Shown: piece by piece, positions 14,478-58,267 of the stretch
Position numbering within the stretch: the first letter of the stretch is position 1
Layout: each line of letters begins with the position of its first letter
Assembly (NCBI GenBank): GCA_945859965.1
Contig: CAMAPG010000002.1
Location: 1-59,390, forward strand
Length of the DNA: 59,390 nucleotides
Origin: Opitutus sp. GAS368
GTDB taxonomy: Bacteria; Verrucomicrobiota; Verrucomicrobiia; Opitutales; Opitutaceae
Reading direction: 5' to 3'
The notes under the pieces: generated by a model
Told to the model about the DNA's origin: nothing
The model's database searches: none
The model's input: the letters and a program-made list of their open reading frames with translations, nothing else
Translations under genes and position numbers: made by a program

Positions 14478-14604
14478 CTAGGAGCTGTTTGGGAAATGCC
14501 GGTTGCTTTAGATTCTCGTAGCGAAACGCGTGAGCGTTTCGGGTTCGGACGAAAGCCTCACGGCATTCGCTACTCGGAGAGACGAATTCCCAACCAGCTC
14601 CTAG
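14478..14604 (-). repeat. family A palindromic element copy 1 (inverse orientation to copies 2 and 3)
   Basis: CTAGGAGCTGTTTGGGAA ... TTCCCAACCAGCTCCTAG terminal inverted repeats around GTAG-CGAAACGC-gtga-GCGTTTCG-...-CGAAAGCC-tcac-GGCATTCG-CTAC. Confidence 0.9.
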
Positions 14605-24876: not shown

Positions 24877-25352
24877 CTCGTGGATTCCTGGGACTGGGCA
24901 GCAATCTGGGCGACAAACGCGCGCACCTCGCCGCAGCGCTTGAAGCGCTGGCTCGCGAACCTGGAATCGAACTTCGGCGCACGGCGGTTTTTTACCGCAC
25001 CGCCCCGCTGGGCGGGCCCGCCGGTCAGGACTGGTATCTTAATACCGTGGTGGAGATCGCGACCGATTTGCGCCCACTAGCGGTGTTGGAGCGCTGCGAA
25101 GCGATCGAACGATCCCTGGGCCGCGTGCGGATCGAACGCTGGGGTCCGCGGACGATCGATATCGATCTGCTCTGGTTCGATGAGGCGGTTGAAGCCACGC
25201 CACGTTTAATCCTTCCGCATCCCCGGGCTCATTTGCGCAGCTTCGTCCTGAAACCGTGGCATGAACTGGAGCCGGATTTCCTGCTGCTCGGACATCCACT
25301 CGCTTACTGGCTGGAGAAGGCCGATCCCTTGGGGATCGCCAAAGTGCCATGA
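24873..25352 (+). CDS. folK: 2-amino-4-hydroxy-6-hydroxymethyldihydropteridine pyrophosphokinase
   Basis: GLGSNLGDKRAHLAAAL, LGRVRIERWGPRTIDIDLLWF, LPHPRAHLRSFVL. Confidence 0.96.
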   Translation: MTRGFLGLGSNLGDKRAHLAAALEALAREPGIELRRTAVFYRTAPLGGPAGQDWYLNTVVEIATDLRPLAVLERCEAIERSLGRVRIERWGPRTIDIDLLWFDEAVEATPRLILPHPRAHLRSFVLKPWHELEPDFLLLGHPLAYWLEKADPLGIAKVP

Positions 25353-32462: not shown

Positions 32463-33929
32463 ATGTCCTCCGACCTCACCTTCAAATCCATCGCCGAACT
32501 CGCCGTGCTGCTCGAGGCGAAGAAGCTCTCCTCCGTCGAACTGACGCAGGCGACGATTGCCCGCACCAAGGCGGTCGAGGCCAGGGTGAAGGCGTTCAAT
32601 TCGTTCGATGAAACCGATGCCTTGGCGCAGGCGGCGGCCTCCGACGCGCGTCGGACTGCAGGGCAGGCGAGAGGTCCGCTCGAAGGTATTCCGGTGGGTT
32701 TGAAGGATGTGATTTCCGTGGCGGGGCAGCCGCTGACGGCGTCGAGCAAGATGCTCGTGAACTTCGTTTCCCCTTATGACGCTACGGTGACCCGCAAATT
32801 GAAGCATGCAGGGGCCGTGCTCTGGGGACGGCTGAATCTCGATGAATTCGCGATGGGTTCCTCGACGGAAAACTCGGCTTTCCATACCACCCGCAATCCG
32901 TGGGATCTGACCCGGGTGCCGGGTGGTTCATCGGGCGGCAGTGCGGCGGCGCTGGCCGCGGGCGAGGCCAGCATGACCCTGGGCTCGGACACCGGTGGTT
33001 CGATCCGCCAGCCCGCCGCGCTTTGCGGCGTGGTGGGTTTTAAGCCGAGTTACGGACTCATCTCGCGCTATGGCCTGATCGCGTTTGCATCGTCGCTCGA
33101 CCAGATCGGCCCGTTCACCCGCACCGTTGAGGACGCGGCGATCACCCTGAGCGTGATTGCCGGCCACGACCCGCTCGATTCGACCTCGTTCAAAACCGAG
33201 CTGCCCGACTACCGGGCCGAACTCGGCCGGCGCAATGGACCCTGGCGGCTGGGAATTCCGAAGGAATATTTTGGCGAAGGCCTCGACCCCGAGGTCGCCG
33301 CGGCGGTGCAGGCGGCGGTGGAGCATTACAAAAAGCTGGGATGTGAGATCAAAGAGGTCTCCTTGCCCCATACGAAGTACTGCCTCGATACCTACTACAT
33401 CATCGCGACGGCCGAGGCGTCCTCGAACCTCGCGCGCTACGACGGCATCCGTTACGGCCATCGTTCGAAGGATGCGAAGGACGCCATCGACATCTATTTC
33501 AAATCGCGCGCCGAGGGTTTTGGCGCCGAAGTGAAACGCCGGATCATCCTCGGCACTTACGTGCTCTCCAGTGGCTATTACGATGCGTATTATCTCCGGG
33601 CGCAAAAAGTCCGCACCCTGATCCGCCAGGATTTCCTCAACGCTTACAAGGAGGTGGATGCGCTTCTCACTCCGACCACACCCACGCCAGCGTTCAAGAT
33701 CGGCGAAAAGGCCGATCCGCTCGCGATGTACCTGTGCGATGTCTACACGATCGGGGTGAATCTCGCTGGGCTGCCAGGACTGAGCCTGCCCTGCGGTTTT
33801 TCGAAGAGCGGTCTGCCGATCGGATTGCAGGTGATCGGCCAGCCTTTCAAGGAGGCCGAATTGCTGTCCATCGCCCGCGCCTACGAACAGGCGCACGACT
33901 GGCATTTGCGGCATCCCAATCTTTTATGA
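32463..33929 (+). CDS. gatA: Asp/Glu-tRNA amidotransferase subunit A
   Basis: Amidase signature [45 protein letters not shown]. Confidence 0.97.
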
Positions 33930-33933
33930 AGGA

Positions 33934-34014
33934 GCGAGTAGTGGGTAGCGAGTAGCGAGCATGGCTACCGCTTCCGACCTACTCGCTACCCACTACTCAC
34001 TCCTCGCTCCTCCC
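33934..34014. repeat. inverted pair of 7-mer micro-arrays (GCGAGTA-type / TACTCGC-type)
   Basis: GCGAGTA GTGGGTA GCGAGTA GCGAGCA ... TACTCGC TACCCAC TACTCAC TCCTCGC TCCTCCC read directly. Confidence 0.85.
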
Positions 34015-34016
34015 AC

Positions 34017-35468
34017 ATGAAATACGAAGCGGTCATCGGTCTTGAGGTCCACGTCCAGATCAAGACGCACTCCAAGATGTTCACGCGCGTGGCGGCCGGT
34101 TATGGCCACAAGCCGAACACGCTCACGGATCCCGTGGTGCTCGCGTTGCCGGGTGTGCTGCCAGTGATGAACAAGGCCGCGCTCGACGCCATCATCAAGG
34201 CGGGGCTCATGCTTAATTCTGGGATCGCGCCGGTTTCAAAATGGGACCGGAAGAACTATTTCTATCCCGACTCGACAAAGAACTATCAGATTTCGCAGTA
34301 CGACCAGCCGATCTGCCTCGGCGGATTCGTGGAGATCGAGTTGCCGGGATCCGCCCGGAATGTGATGGGTGAACACAAAAAAATCCCTCTGACCCGCATC
34401 CACCTCGAGGAGGACGTCGGCAAACTCACTCACTTCGCCAGCGAATCCCTGGTCGATTATAACCGCGCCGGCACACCGTTGATGGAAATTGTGTCCGAAC
34501 CCGCGATGCACACCGCCGACGAGGCGTTTGCCTACCTGACGTCGCTGCGGGCCGCGATGGTGTATGGCGGGATTTCCGATTGCGACATGGAGAAAGGCCA
34601 GCTCCGCTGCGATGCGAACATTTCGATCCGTCCCGTTGGTGAAACCAAGCTGGGGACAAAGGTGGAGCTGAAGAACCTCAACTCGATCTCGTTCGTGCGC
34701 GACGGCATTGCCCACGAGATCAAGCGCCAGATCGCCGCGGTGGAAAGTGGCGGCACAATCGTGCAAGAGACCCGCCAGTACGACGGCGAGGCGGGCGTTT
34801 CGACCTCGATGCGCTCCAAGGAAATGGCGCACGATTATCGCTATTTCCCCGACCCGGACCTGATGCCGGTCAAGGTGGATGATGCTTGGAAGGCACGCCT
34901 GCAGGCCGAATGTCCTGAGCTGCCCTTCGAGAAGCAGCGCCGGTTCATCGAGCAGTATCAGGTGCCTTACACCATCACTTCGGTGGTGGTTTGGGACCGT
35001 GAACTGGCTGATTTCTTCGAGGAAGCAGCCAAGCTCAGCGGCAAGCCGCAGGCGGCCGGCAACTGGATCGTCAACGATCTGCTGCGGGAGCTTGGTACTG
35101 CGAAACAAGTGCTGGCCGAGTCCAAGGTCCGACCGGCGCATGTGGCCGAGCTGGTGAAATTGGTCGACGCGGGCACGCTCCTCAACAACTCGGCCAAAGA
35201 AGTCTTTATCGACATGTTTTCGACCGGCGAACTGCCGTCGGTCATCAGCGACCGCAAAGGCCTGAAGGCCGCGCCCACGGATCTCGGTGAGCTCGAGCAA
35301 TGGTGCCGCGACGCGATTGCCGCCAATGCCAAAGCCCTCGCGGAATTCAAGACGGGCAAGGACAGCGCGATCAATGCGTTCAAAGGCCCGGTCATGAAAG
35401 CGGCCAAGGGGAAGGCGAACCCGAAGGCGGTCGACGAGACCCTGCGCAAGCTGCTTGCGCAGATGTAG
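34017..35468 (+). CDS. gatB: Asp/Glu-tRNA amidotransferase subunit B
   Basis: YEAVIGLEVHVQIKTHSKMF, DYNRAGTPLMEIVSEP, LRCDANISIRP. Confidence 0.97.
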   Translation: MKYEAVIGLEVHVQIKTHSKMFTRVAAGYGHKPNTLTDPVVLALPGVLPVMNKAALDAIIKAGLMLNSGIAPVSKWDRKNYFYPDSTKNYQISQYDQPICLGGFVEIELPGSARNVMGEHKKIPLTRIHLEEDVGKLTHFASESLVDYNRAGTPLMEIVSEPAMHTADEAFAYLTSLRAAMVYGGISDCDMEKGQLRCDANISIRPVGETKLGTKVELKNLNSISFVRDGIAHEIKRQIAAVESGGTIVQETRQYDGEAGVSTSMRSKEMAHDYRYFPDPDLMPVKVDDAWKARLQAECPELPFEKQRRFIEQYQVPYTITSVVVWDRELADFFEEAAKLSGKPQAAGNWIVNDLLRELGTAKQVLAESKVRPAHVAELVKLVDAGTLLNNSAKEVFIDMFSTGELPSVISDRKGLKAAPTDLGELEQWCRDAIAANAKALAEFKTGKDSAINAFKGPVMKAAKGKANPKAVDETLRKLLAQM

Positions 35469-45609: not shown

Positions 45610-45687
45610 ATTGGCCGGGCTTTTTCGCCACCGGGCGCATCGCGTCTGGCTAATCTTTAGGCGTCAGTGATCTTTCCCTCTCCTTTC

Positions 45688-48291
45688 ATGCCTAAAACCG
45701 CTTCCCGTTCCGCTGATTTTCGTTTGCTGGATCCTTTCTGGCGCGAGCCGGTCGAGCGCACGGTTCTTCCGAACGGACTGACGGTCATTCTCAAGCCCGA
45801 TCACTCGGCGGCGCTCGCCTCGGTCCAGGTGTGGGTCAAGACCGGCAGCATTCACGAGGGCGATGCCTTGGGGGCGGGACTGTCGCATTATCTGGAGCAC
45901 ATGCTTTTCAAGGGGACGTCGCGGCGGGCGGGCCGGGAGATTTCCGCGACGGTGCAGGCCCACGGCGGCTACATCAACGCCTACACGACCTTCGATCGCA
46001 CGGTCTATTACATCGATCTCCCCAGCGAGCATACCACCGTGGCTTTGGATCTGCTCGCGGATGCGGTGCTGAATTCGACGCTGCCGGCCGACGAAGTGAC
46101 GAAGGAGCGCGAAGTCATCCTCCGTGAGATCGCGATGACGCGTGACGATCCGGACAACCGTTTTTGGGAATCGCTCTATGCCACCGCGTTTCGCGAACAC
46201 CCGTACCGTCATCCGATCATCGGTTATCGCGACGTGTTTTCCGCCATCACCCGCGAGGATTTGTGGACTTACTATCGCACCCGTTATGTGCCCAACAATC
46301 TCGTGCTCGTGGTCGTGGGCGATTTCGACCCGGTGGCCATTCGCGCCAGTATTGAGCAGCACTTTGGTTCGGTCCCCCGCGCACGTCTGGCCCCGGTGCT
46401 GGTGCCCGCCGAACCGGTTCCGCTGGCCCGTCGGGAACAACACCGGTTTGAGGACGTGGAACTCACGCGCGGCGGCCTGGCCTGGCAGATCCCGGGGCTG
46501 ACCCATTCTGATGCGCCGATCCTGGATTTGCTCGGCACGATCCTCGGTGCGGGCGACAGCTCGGTCTTGTGGCAATCCATCCGCGAAAAAGCCGGACTCG
46601 TGCACACGATCGACGCCCAGAGCTGGAATCCGGGGAGCGTCGGACTTTTTTGCGTCTCGTTTACGTGCGATGCGGCCAAGCGCGAAGCCGCGTCGGCCGC
46701 GATCGAACGCGAGCTGGTCCGTTGCGCGGCGCGCGGCTTCACCGCTTCGCAGCTGCGCAAGGCGCGGCGCCAGCTCGTGGTCGGGGAAATCAACACCCGC
46801 AAGACCATGGCCGGCCAGGCCTCGCGCCTGGGCGCCGCGGAGGTCGTGGTGGGCGATCTCGACTACAGCCGGACTTATTTCGAGCAGCTGGCGGCGGTGA
46901 CTCCCGCCGATTTGCGCTCGGTGCTGAAACATTACCTCGTGCCTTCGCGCGTGACGAGCATCTCGCTCAATCCGACTGCAGCCGGACCTGCGGCCAATGC
47001 GGCCACGCGGGTGTCGGTGACGGCGTCGCGTGACTTCGAGGAGATCACCCTGGGCAACGGAGCGCGCCTGCTGTTGCAGCCGGACTCCCGTCTGCCGAAT
47101 TTGCATTTCCGTCTGCTCTGCCTGGGCGGGCCGATGCAGGAAAGCCCCGGACGGCGCGGCGCGAGTGCGCTGCTCGCCACGATGCTGACCAAGGACACGC
47201 GTCACCGCAGCGCGGCGGCGATCGCGCATTTCATCGAGGAAGTGGGCGGAAGTTTCTATCCCTTCTCGGGCAACAACAGCCTGGGGCTGGCCGCGGAAGT
47301 GCTGCCGCCCGATGCCGACCGCGCGCTGACGGTGCTGGCGGATGCGGTTGTGGCGCCCGCCTTCAAGGCCGGGACCTTCACGACCGAGCGCAATGCGCAG
47401 CTAGCGGATTTGCAGCAGGACGCTGACGATGTCGTCACGCTCGGAAAAAAACGGCTGCGCCAAAGATTCTTTGGCCTCCATCCGCTCGCGCTTTCCGCCC
47501 ACGGCGATGAAGCGGGCGTGCAGGCGCTGGTGCCCGCCGATCTCGCGACTCTGCACCGCCGTTTGTTTGTCGCGCCCAATGTGGTGCTGGCCGTGGCGGG
47601 CGATTTCACCCCGCGCACGCTGATGCCGAAATTGCAGCGCTTCCTCGGCCGCCTGCCCCTGGCGTCGCCCGTGGCGACGGCGTCCCCGGCGGTCACGGTC
47701 GATTTTCCCGCGGACCGGGGCGATTTTGTCGAACAGCAAGCACGGGAGCAGGCCGTGGTTTTCCAGGCCTTTCCCGCGCCCGCGTTGCGTGCACCCGACT
47801 TCTACGTCGGCGAGGTGGCCGATGAGCTTTTCAGCGGTATGGCGTCGCGGCTCTTCGAACGCGTGCGGGAGGAAAAAGGCCTCGCATATTTCGTGCGCTC
47901 GGCGCGCGTGACCGGTCTGGATGCCGCGATGTTTTATTTTTACGCCGGCACCGCGCCGGCCCATGCCACCGAAGTGCTGGCGGAAATCGACGCGGAAATT
48001 GCGCGCGTGCAAACTGGCGGGGTCGAGGAGGCGGAATTGCAGCGTTGCCAGATCCGGCTCAAAGCGGCCCGCCGCCAGAGCTTGCAGACCAACGGCGCGC
48101 GCGCGATGCAGGCGGGGCTCAACGCCCTCTACGGCCTGCCGATCAACGACTGGAAAAATTACGACGGGCGCATTGAAGCGGTTACCCGGGCCGATCTCTC
48201 GCAGTTTGCCCGCAATTATTTCCAGCGGGAACGGCGCACCCAGTTGATTGTGACACCGGGACAATCCCCGCTGGGCGAATCGGCGCGCTAG
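45688..48291 (+). CDS. M16 family zinc metallopeptidase (two M16 halves)
   Basis: HXXEH-type motif LSHYLEHMLFKGTSRR with downstream Glu; second inactive-type half. Confidence 0.93.
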   Translation: MPKTASRSADFRLLDPFWREPVERTVLPNGLTVILKPDHSAALASVQVWVKTGSIHEGDALGAGLSHYLEHMLFKGTSRRAGREISATVQAHGGYINAYTTFDRTVYYIDLPSEHTTVALDLLADAVLNSTLPADEVTKEREVILREIAMTRDDPDNRFWESLYATAFREHPYRHPIIGYRDVFSAITREDLWTYYRTRYVPNNLVLVVVGDFDPVAIRASIEQHFGSVPRARLAPVLVPAEPVPLARREQHRFEDVELTRGGLAWQIPGLTHSDAPILDLLGTILGAGDSSVLWQSIREKAGLVHTIDAQSWNPGSVGLFCVSFTCDAAKREAASAAIERELVRCAARGFTASQLRKARRQLVVGEINTRKTMAGQASRLGAAEVVVGDLDYSRTYFEQLAAVTPADLRSVLKHYLVPSRVTSISLNPTAAGPAANAATRVSVTASRDFEEITLGNGARLLLQPDSRLPNLHFRLLCLGGPMQESPGRRGASALLATMLTKDTRHRSAAAIAHFIEEVGGSFYPFSGNNSLGLAAEVLPPDADRALTVLADAVVAPAFKAGTFTTERNAQLADLQQDADDVVTLGKKRLRQRFFGLHPLALSAHGDEAGVQALVPADLATLHRRLFVAPNVVLAVAGDFTPRTLMPKLQRFLGRLPLASPVATASPAVTVDFPADRGDFVEQQAREQAVVFQAFPAPALRAPDFYVGEVADELFSGMASRLFERVREEKGLAYFVRSARVTGLDAAMFYFYAGTAPAHATEVLAEIDAEIARVQTGGVEEAELQRCQIRLKAARRQSLQTNGARAMQAGLNALYGLPINDWKNYDGRIEAVTRADLSQFARNYFQRERRTQLIVTPGQSPLGESAR

Positions 48292-48444
48292 GAGCTGTTT
48301 GGGAATTCGTCTCTCCGAATAGCGAAAGCCGTGAGGCTTTCGTCCGAGCCCGAAACGCTCATCCCCCTTCGCCAAGCCCACGGAGGATAGGCGCGTTTCG
48401 CTACGAGAATCCAAGGCAAGCGGCATTTCCCAAACAGCCCCTAG
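48288..48444 (+). repeat. family A palindromic element copy 2, with about 30-nt extra sequence in the second hairpin loop
   Basis: CTAGGAGCTGTTTGGGAA...TTCCCAAACAGCCCCTAG; TAG at 48289-48291 is the stop of the M16 gene. Confidence 0.9.
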
Positions 48445-48460
48445 GGGTTTTAGATCATCT

Positions 48461-48549
48461 GTCATTCTGAGCGGAGCGAAGAATCCACGTCGATAGGGCC
48501 GAAGCTGAAAGCGACATCGCACTGGATTCTTTGCTCCGCTCAGAATGAC
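48461..48549. repeat. long hairpin GTCATTCTGAGCGGAGCGAAGAATCCA ... TGGATTCTTTGCTCCGCTCAGAATGAC
   Basis: 27-bp inverted arms with one mismatch, 35-nt loop. Confidence 0.9.
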
Positions 48550-48645
48550 AATCCTCGGGAGGGCATCACCGCACCCGGCAAAAACGGCGAGGGCGATTCA
48601 CTCTTGTGAAAGATTGAATCACGTGCGCCCGTTTCGTGGGGTGTT

Positions 48646-57635: not shown

Positions 57636-58145
57636 ATGAGCGAGGAATTCTTCGACATCGTAAATCCGCACGACGAAGTCATCGGCCGTGCGCTGCGGCG
57701 CGAGGTGCATGCCTCCGGCCTGTGGCACCGGGCAATCCACGTCCTGGTGTTCGACCGCCTGGGACGGGTGTTTCTCCAGAAACGGTCGATGCTCAAGGAC
57801 ATGGCGCCCGGCTTGTGGGACTCCTCCTGCTCCGGCCACGTCGATTCCGGGGAAGACTATGATGCGGCGGCGACCCGTGAACTGGGCGAAGAGCTCGGTT
57901 TGCCAGAACCGGAGGCGAAGGCGCGGGAGCGCTGGTTTCGGAAAGAGGCATGCCGGGAAACCGGTTGGGAATTCGTCTGGGTGTACCGGCTCCGGCACGA
58001 GGGACCCTTCGTACTGCATCCGGAGGAAATCTCTGGCGGCGAATGGCTCGCGCCGGACGAAGTGACTGCGCGGATGGCAAGGCGGCCGGAGGACTATGCC
58101 CCGGCGTTTCGCCTGCTATGGGGCATCGCGGCGCAGAAGCCCTAG
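57636..58145 (+). CDS. NUDIX hydrolase (isopentenyl-diphosphate isomerase-like)
   Basis: Nudix-box region SSCSGHVDSGEDYDAAATRELGEELGL. Confidence 0.9.
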   Translation: MSEEFFDIVNPHDEVIGRALRREVHASGLWHRAIHVLVFDRLGRVFLQKRSMLKDMAPGLWDSSCSGHVDSGEDYDAAATRELGEELGLPEPEAKARERWFRKEACRETGWEFVWVYRLRHEGPFVLHPEEISGGEWLAPDEVTARMARRPEDYAPAFRLLWGIAAQKP

Positions 58146-58267
58146 GAACTGTTTGGGAGTTCGTCTCTCCGAGTAGCGAAAGCCGTGAGGCTTTCGTCCG
58201 AACCCGAAACGCTCACGCGTTTCGCTACGAGAATCCAAGGCAAGCGGCATTTCCCAAACAGCCCTTA
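58142..58267 (+). repeat. family A palindromic element copy 3
   Basis: CTAGGAACTGTTTGGGA...TTTCCCAAACAGCCCTTA; TAG at 58143-58145 is the stop of the NUDIX gene. Confidence 0.9.

Follow-up and report, generated by a model that had tools for sequence, protein, structure and literature searches.

Repeats that supply the stop codons of neighbouring genes have published precedent. The sections of the BOX report that bear on this point (PMC3049150) describe 36 genes of Streptococcus pneumoniae whose stop codon is encoded by the repeat at the extreme 3' end, without strong evidence that the proteins are truncated. The termini of GTAG REPs, likewise, often supply the TAG stop of flanking ORFs (PMC3733652). 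Among mobile elements, IS630 prefers TA in CTAG, as stated in the title of Tenzen and Ohtsubo 1991 (cited in PMC2170065).

Here we describe an element that contributes to a stop codon in Opitutus sp. GAS368 (GCA_945859965.1), based on a window of 59,390 nucleotides of contig CAMAPG010000002.1 and on the rest of the genome. Our reading, to which we assign a probability of roughly 0.86, is that the element is a lineage-specific MITE that inserts at the TA of GnnYTARnnC and whose insertions survive when they rebuild the stop codon. Relative to the earlier systems, our analysis adds the composite structure, an explicit account of how target motif and first base together yield the rebuilt stop, and a comparison of protein ends with those of orthologues. 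Coordinates are collected in Table 1.

Results

The stop codon of an M16 peptidase gene

The element at 48288-48444 has the boundaries gcg/CTAGGAGCTG...CAGCCCCTAG/gggg (slashes mark the borders), as given in the initial annotation of this DNA. It adjoins an ORF whose product is a two-lobed M16 peptidase, with two stretches each of Peptidase_M16 and Peptidase_M16_C. The initial annotation placed the terminal TAG inside the element boundary, regarded TA as the target duplication, and proposed that insertion at or near the stop had rebuilt a TAG. All of this is borne out. The TAG consists of TA plus the first G of the 151-bp element, a duplication of TA only is seen across copies of the family, and the insertion is at the stop codon itself, with the G of the element completing the rebuilt TAG. 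The further suggestion that the stop may be element-derived does not hold at this locus. Empty sites, that of the M16 gene included, were inferred by joining flanks; joining at 48290/48444 gives GGCGCGC-TA-GGGGTTTTAG, which has an in-frame TAG even with the element removed. Because the joined site is C-TA-G, the M16 stop is independent of the element. If the TAG preceded the insertion, the locus without the element would be expected to read ...GCGCGCTAGGGG....

Table 1. Features of the M16 peptidase locus and further element copies in the window
Feature	Position	Strand	Remarks
Intergenic copy, 121 bp	14481..14601		CTAG target; not at a stop codon
M16-family peptidase ORF	45667..48291	+	874 aa; the boundary TAG is its stop
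GGA codon where most homologues have a stop, directly after Pro864	48259..48261	+	70-homologue comparison
Remainder of lineage-specific C-terminal extension, QSPLGESAR	48262..48288	+	Homologue comparison
TAG stop codon	48289..48291	+	TA is the left target duplication, G is element base 1
Target duplication, left copy (TA)	48289..48290		Sequences at element ends
MITE proper, 151-bp length class	48291..48441		Genome matches, paired ends
Left terminal inverted repeat GGAGCTGTTTGGGAA	48291..48305	+	15 bp
REP hairpin 1: (A/G)TAG CGAAAGCC GTGA GGCTTTCG	48319..48342	+	Sequence, REP comparison
REP hairpin 2, opposite orientation: GTAG CGAAACGC ... GCGTTTCG	48351..48404	-	Sequence, REP comparison
30-bp insert in hairpin 2, separating the 151-bp from the 121-bp class	48362..48391		Copy comparison
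Right terminal inverted repeat	48427..48441	-	One mismatch to the left repeat
Target duplication, right copy (TA)	48442..48443		Flank G follows, so that the empty site is also TAG
Boundary-stop copy, 121 bp	58145..58265		Boundary TAG 58143-58145 ends NUDIX-hydrolase-like ORF 57636-58145

The peptidase does end differently from its homologues. We compared the 70 M16 homologues with a readable stop, a set that counts the window gene and in which a few genomes are present twice. In 52 of the 70, the stop (mostly TGA) comes right after the residue matching Pro864, and in the remainder it falls within a few residues. The window gene is the sole one with ten extra residues past Pro864, and its extension ends at the CTAG that received the element. 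Hence, the 10 residues by which the protein exceeds most of its relatives stem from the loss of a stop 30 nt upstream and not from the insertion. The initial annotation had raised the possibility of a different ancestral C-terminus and proposed to align orthologues; the alignment supports it insofar as the M16 end is non-ancestral (10 extra codons) and differs from that of homologues, and contradicts it as to the cause, which lies in the lost upstream stop rather than the element.

Two other repeats occur in the window. Just downstream of the M16 copy, at 48460-48550, is an unrelated palindromic repeat with 35-nt arms, TGTCATTCTGAGCGGAGCGAAGAATCC, found at ∼6 places in 0.96 Mb of the genome, one of which (C9:25106) is near a MITE at 25217. 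At 33930-34004, between ORFs 32463-33929 and 34017-35468, lies an inverted repeat, AGGAGCGAGTAGTGGGTAGCGAGTAG, whose 26-nt arms match almost perfectly.

A REP pair within inverted ends

At its core, the element carries two GTAG-type REP hairpins arranged head to head, with CTAC at the end of the second. Extra hairpin DNA of the CCTTCGCC...GGAGGA type, lodged in the second REP's loop, gives the 151-bp and 184-bp classes, making the element a nested mosaic; motifs like this hairpin DNA are also present elsewhere in the genome. A search of Rfam gave no family match to the element up to E = 1.

We found 45 matches to the element in the genome (3.02 Mb, 338 contigs, assembly 84% complete). Pairing of ends in 0.96 Mb of contigs, the sequence also used for the background sites below, gave 45 two-ended copies plus half copies. 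The paired copies contain no transposase and are 103–185 bp long, mostly about 121, 151 or 184 bp. Besides the M16 copy, the window contains two others, at 14478-14604 and 58142-58267.

The complete element with its ends was found in none of the others among 252 genomes of its family, Opitutaceae, and not in a sample of the order. When we searched the 252 genomes for the ends, five other genomes had single matches with one mismatch, at or below the level of the reversed-pattern control, and the same search of viral contigs gave no matches. REP pairs without MITE ends do occur elsewhere in the element's own genome (e.g. C6, C15, C47, C152 and C199), and the REP core without MITE ends is also found in the relatives G003, G010, G030 and G159. 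Given that the REP pair occurs alone in the genome and in relatives, the MITE is a composite; with the complete element in no other searched genome, it is a lineage-specific MITE carrying a REP pair.

Insertion at TA within a palindromic target

TA was present at 83 element ends, where the outer base was C (50), T (30), G (2) or A (1). A 4-bp duplication of CTAG was considered and ruled out, as several copies (C31, C190, C237 and C296) pair a CTAG at one end with a CTAA at the opposite end. Since the base beside TA can differ between left and right, the duplication is TA alone (2 bp). The joined targets form the palindrome GnnYTARnnC, in which half-sites carry G at –4 (74%), C/G at –3 and Y at –1 (94%). 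This palindrome and the TA duplication fit the insertion mode of IS630/Tc1-mariner elements.

The element thus has the inverted ends, short length, lack of coding sequence, TA duplication and CTAG-like preference of an IS630-type MITE. Its ends, on the other hand, matched no IS630-family element that could mobilize it. No transposase with the inverted ends of the MITE was found in the genome, and a search of 0.96 Mb for an autonomous copy (260–4000 bp with MITE ends) yielded only chance pairs or pairs from neighbouring copies. The sole DDE_3 match is to one resident IS630-family transposase, also in a CTAG site, whose element has ends unrelated to those of the MITE and was ruled out as its partner for that reason. 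This resident element (L105:890-2090) lies at a CTAG inside a TonB-receptor-like ORF, with its transposase divided between two frames that overlap. Because the assembly is 84% complete and in 338 contigs, the mobilizing transposase may be missing from it. For these reasons, our claim is that the element works like an IS630-type MITE, short of proven membership.

For the core only, the hallmarks of GTAG REPs and BIMEs are present, namely the tag with opposed hairpins, many copies, and RAYT-like genes, the last falling below the curated cut-off: the genome has four Y1-transposase matches, and the two examined resemble REP-associated tyrosine transposases. The mobile unit, however, ends in GG...CC with a TA duplication, not at the REP.

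Reading frame and protein ends at the insertions

The initial annotation proposed tabulating, genome-wide, how often the element starts within a stop codon. Of 44 two-ended copies, 20 lie exactly in the stop codon of a gene, with 14 in gene 3' regions, 8 in other intergenic DNA and 2 in gene bodies. For these site classes, elements were removed by script and genes were called on the joined sequence with a home-made codon-usage caller. In a separate frame test, three frames were read to each element end, and ORFs of ≥100 codons were compared with a null of one third. The boundary TAG was in frame in 29 of 31 coding-like ORFs touching an element end, with 2 in the other frames (P = 3e-12). These data show that the family's coincidence with stop codons is not chance. 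In one copy, C305 (L225:546-651), the target was a TTAA in the overlapping stops of convergent hisF and its neighbour, both of which were rebuilt as TAG.

The explanation advanced in the initial annotation was that the element brings a new stop, i.e. that it inserted in or beyond genes, which were then truncated or ended by its border TAG. The TAG does include the G of the element, and the C-terminus of the M16 peptidase is unlike those of its orthologues. In addition, the joined site of the NUDIX copy (58145) reads TAT, which is not a stop, so that the stop of that gene is now element-dependent; here we consider it more probable that the right flank changed later, because nearly all other targets are YTAR. 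Random insertion within genes, however, would have placed the TAG in all three frames, contrary to the strong bias seen, and the stop is still present in the joined sites at 20 copies. At the M16 gene, the joined flanks read TAG, and the altered end goes back to the lost upstream stop. Orthologues from other genomes provide a further comparison: the end residue is the same in 10/10 for PriA, 10/13 for HisF and 7/10 for MutS, and the stops of these element-free orthologues vary (TGA, TAA or TAG). Since the orthologues mostly share the same end, these three insertions left the C-terminus unmoved, and the notion that the element changes the C-terminus is wrong in general. As a general account, then, the acquisition of new stops is refuted, and we regard it as highly improbable.

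Selection of sites or survival of insertions

Gene bodies contain none of the 39 copies with a YTAR site, compared with 708 background YTAR sites. Relative to all non-coding YTAR sites, copies are concentrated at stop codons (19:20 versus 148:845; odds ratio 5.4, P = 1e-6). We also derived a motif-weighted null, from a motif model trained on copies outside stop codons. With non-coding DNA as the opportunity, the stop share was 48% observed versus 22% expected (P = 3e-4). An over-representation of this kind would be produced if the transposase or its complex actively sought stop codons or gene 3' ends beyond the motif, for example via translation termination or transcript structure. Gene 3' ends, however, are generally safe sites for insertion, and stop codons often carry the target motif. 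When the opportunity was instead limited to stop codons plus 3' regions, the stop share was 59% observed versus 49% expected (bootstrap 43–55%; P = 0.16). Moreover, the element has no preferred orientation with respect to the gene (9 versus 9). The target motif together with survival at gene ends is enough to account for the stop-codon excess. Active seeking of stops is very unlikely on these data, and a special targeting mechanism was set aside, as the motif-weighted null explains the excess. It is similarly doubtful that the transposase truly prefers stops or gene ends over and above GnnYTARnnC, which would make the element a safe-haven transposon that restores the stops it lands in.

Copies might also be kept for a role at the mRNA 3' end, as a REP-like stabilizer or terminator, with those at stop codons selected for. 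REPs have been suggested to act in this way (PMC3733652), and the element combines a REP-pair core with a strong predicted RNA fold (–67 kcal/mol, z –5.2). Against this, the element is lineage-specific, and many copies are decayed or halved. As its arms face the gene equally often (9:9), nothing favours a directional function, which we set aside on that ground; retention for a role at the mRNA 3' end is improbable.

Discussion

We favour the view that a MITE with a particular target and a particular first base persists where it does no harm. The element is probably non-autonomous, moved by a transposase that we infer to be of the IS630/Tc1-mariner type. It inserts at the TA of the palindrome GnnYTARnnC, preferably in CTAG, and duplicates the TA. 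In this GC-rich genome, TAG and TAA stops preceded by a pyrimidine are a major source of non-coding target sites. Both ends of the element start with G, and when it enters a stop codon of either type, TAG or TAA, a TAG is formed again. With TAG recreated, the protein is unchanged, and copies of this kind hence survive. Most insertions into gene bodies and promoters would be lost, presumably through purifying selection.

In this way, a small repeat can spread while doing little harm to a genome densely packed with genes: the motif that it targets coincides with stop codons, and its first base restores them. An IS630-type MITE built around a REP pair represents the merging of two repeat systems. 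There is also a caution for annotation: a stop codon within a repeat does not imply a truncated protein.

The closest described systems each share part of these properties. In common with RUP of Streptococcus pneumoniae and Correia/NEMIS of Neisseria, the element is about 100–190 bp long and non-coding, with terminal inverted repeats and a TA duplication; its CTAG preference is like that of IS630. Unlike RUP and Correia/NEMIS, it has another end sequence, a REP-pair core and no identified partner IS. The core, two opposed GTAG-tagged hairpins, resembles GTAG REPs, BIMEs and REPIN dimers (GTAG families, Opitutus terrae, PMC3733652). In contrast to GTAG REPs, the MITE provides the stop from its outer end plus the target duplication rather than from the GTAG of a REP, and REPs lack its 15-bp outer inverted ends and TA duplication. 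BOX, as far as its description in PMC3049150 bears on the comparison, is unrelated in sequence and different in modular structure, and its stop codons are not tied there to the choice of target, whereas those at the MITE are.
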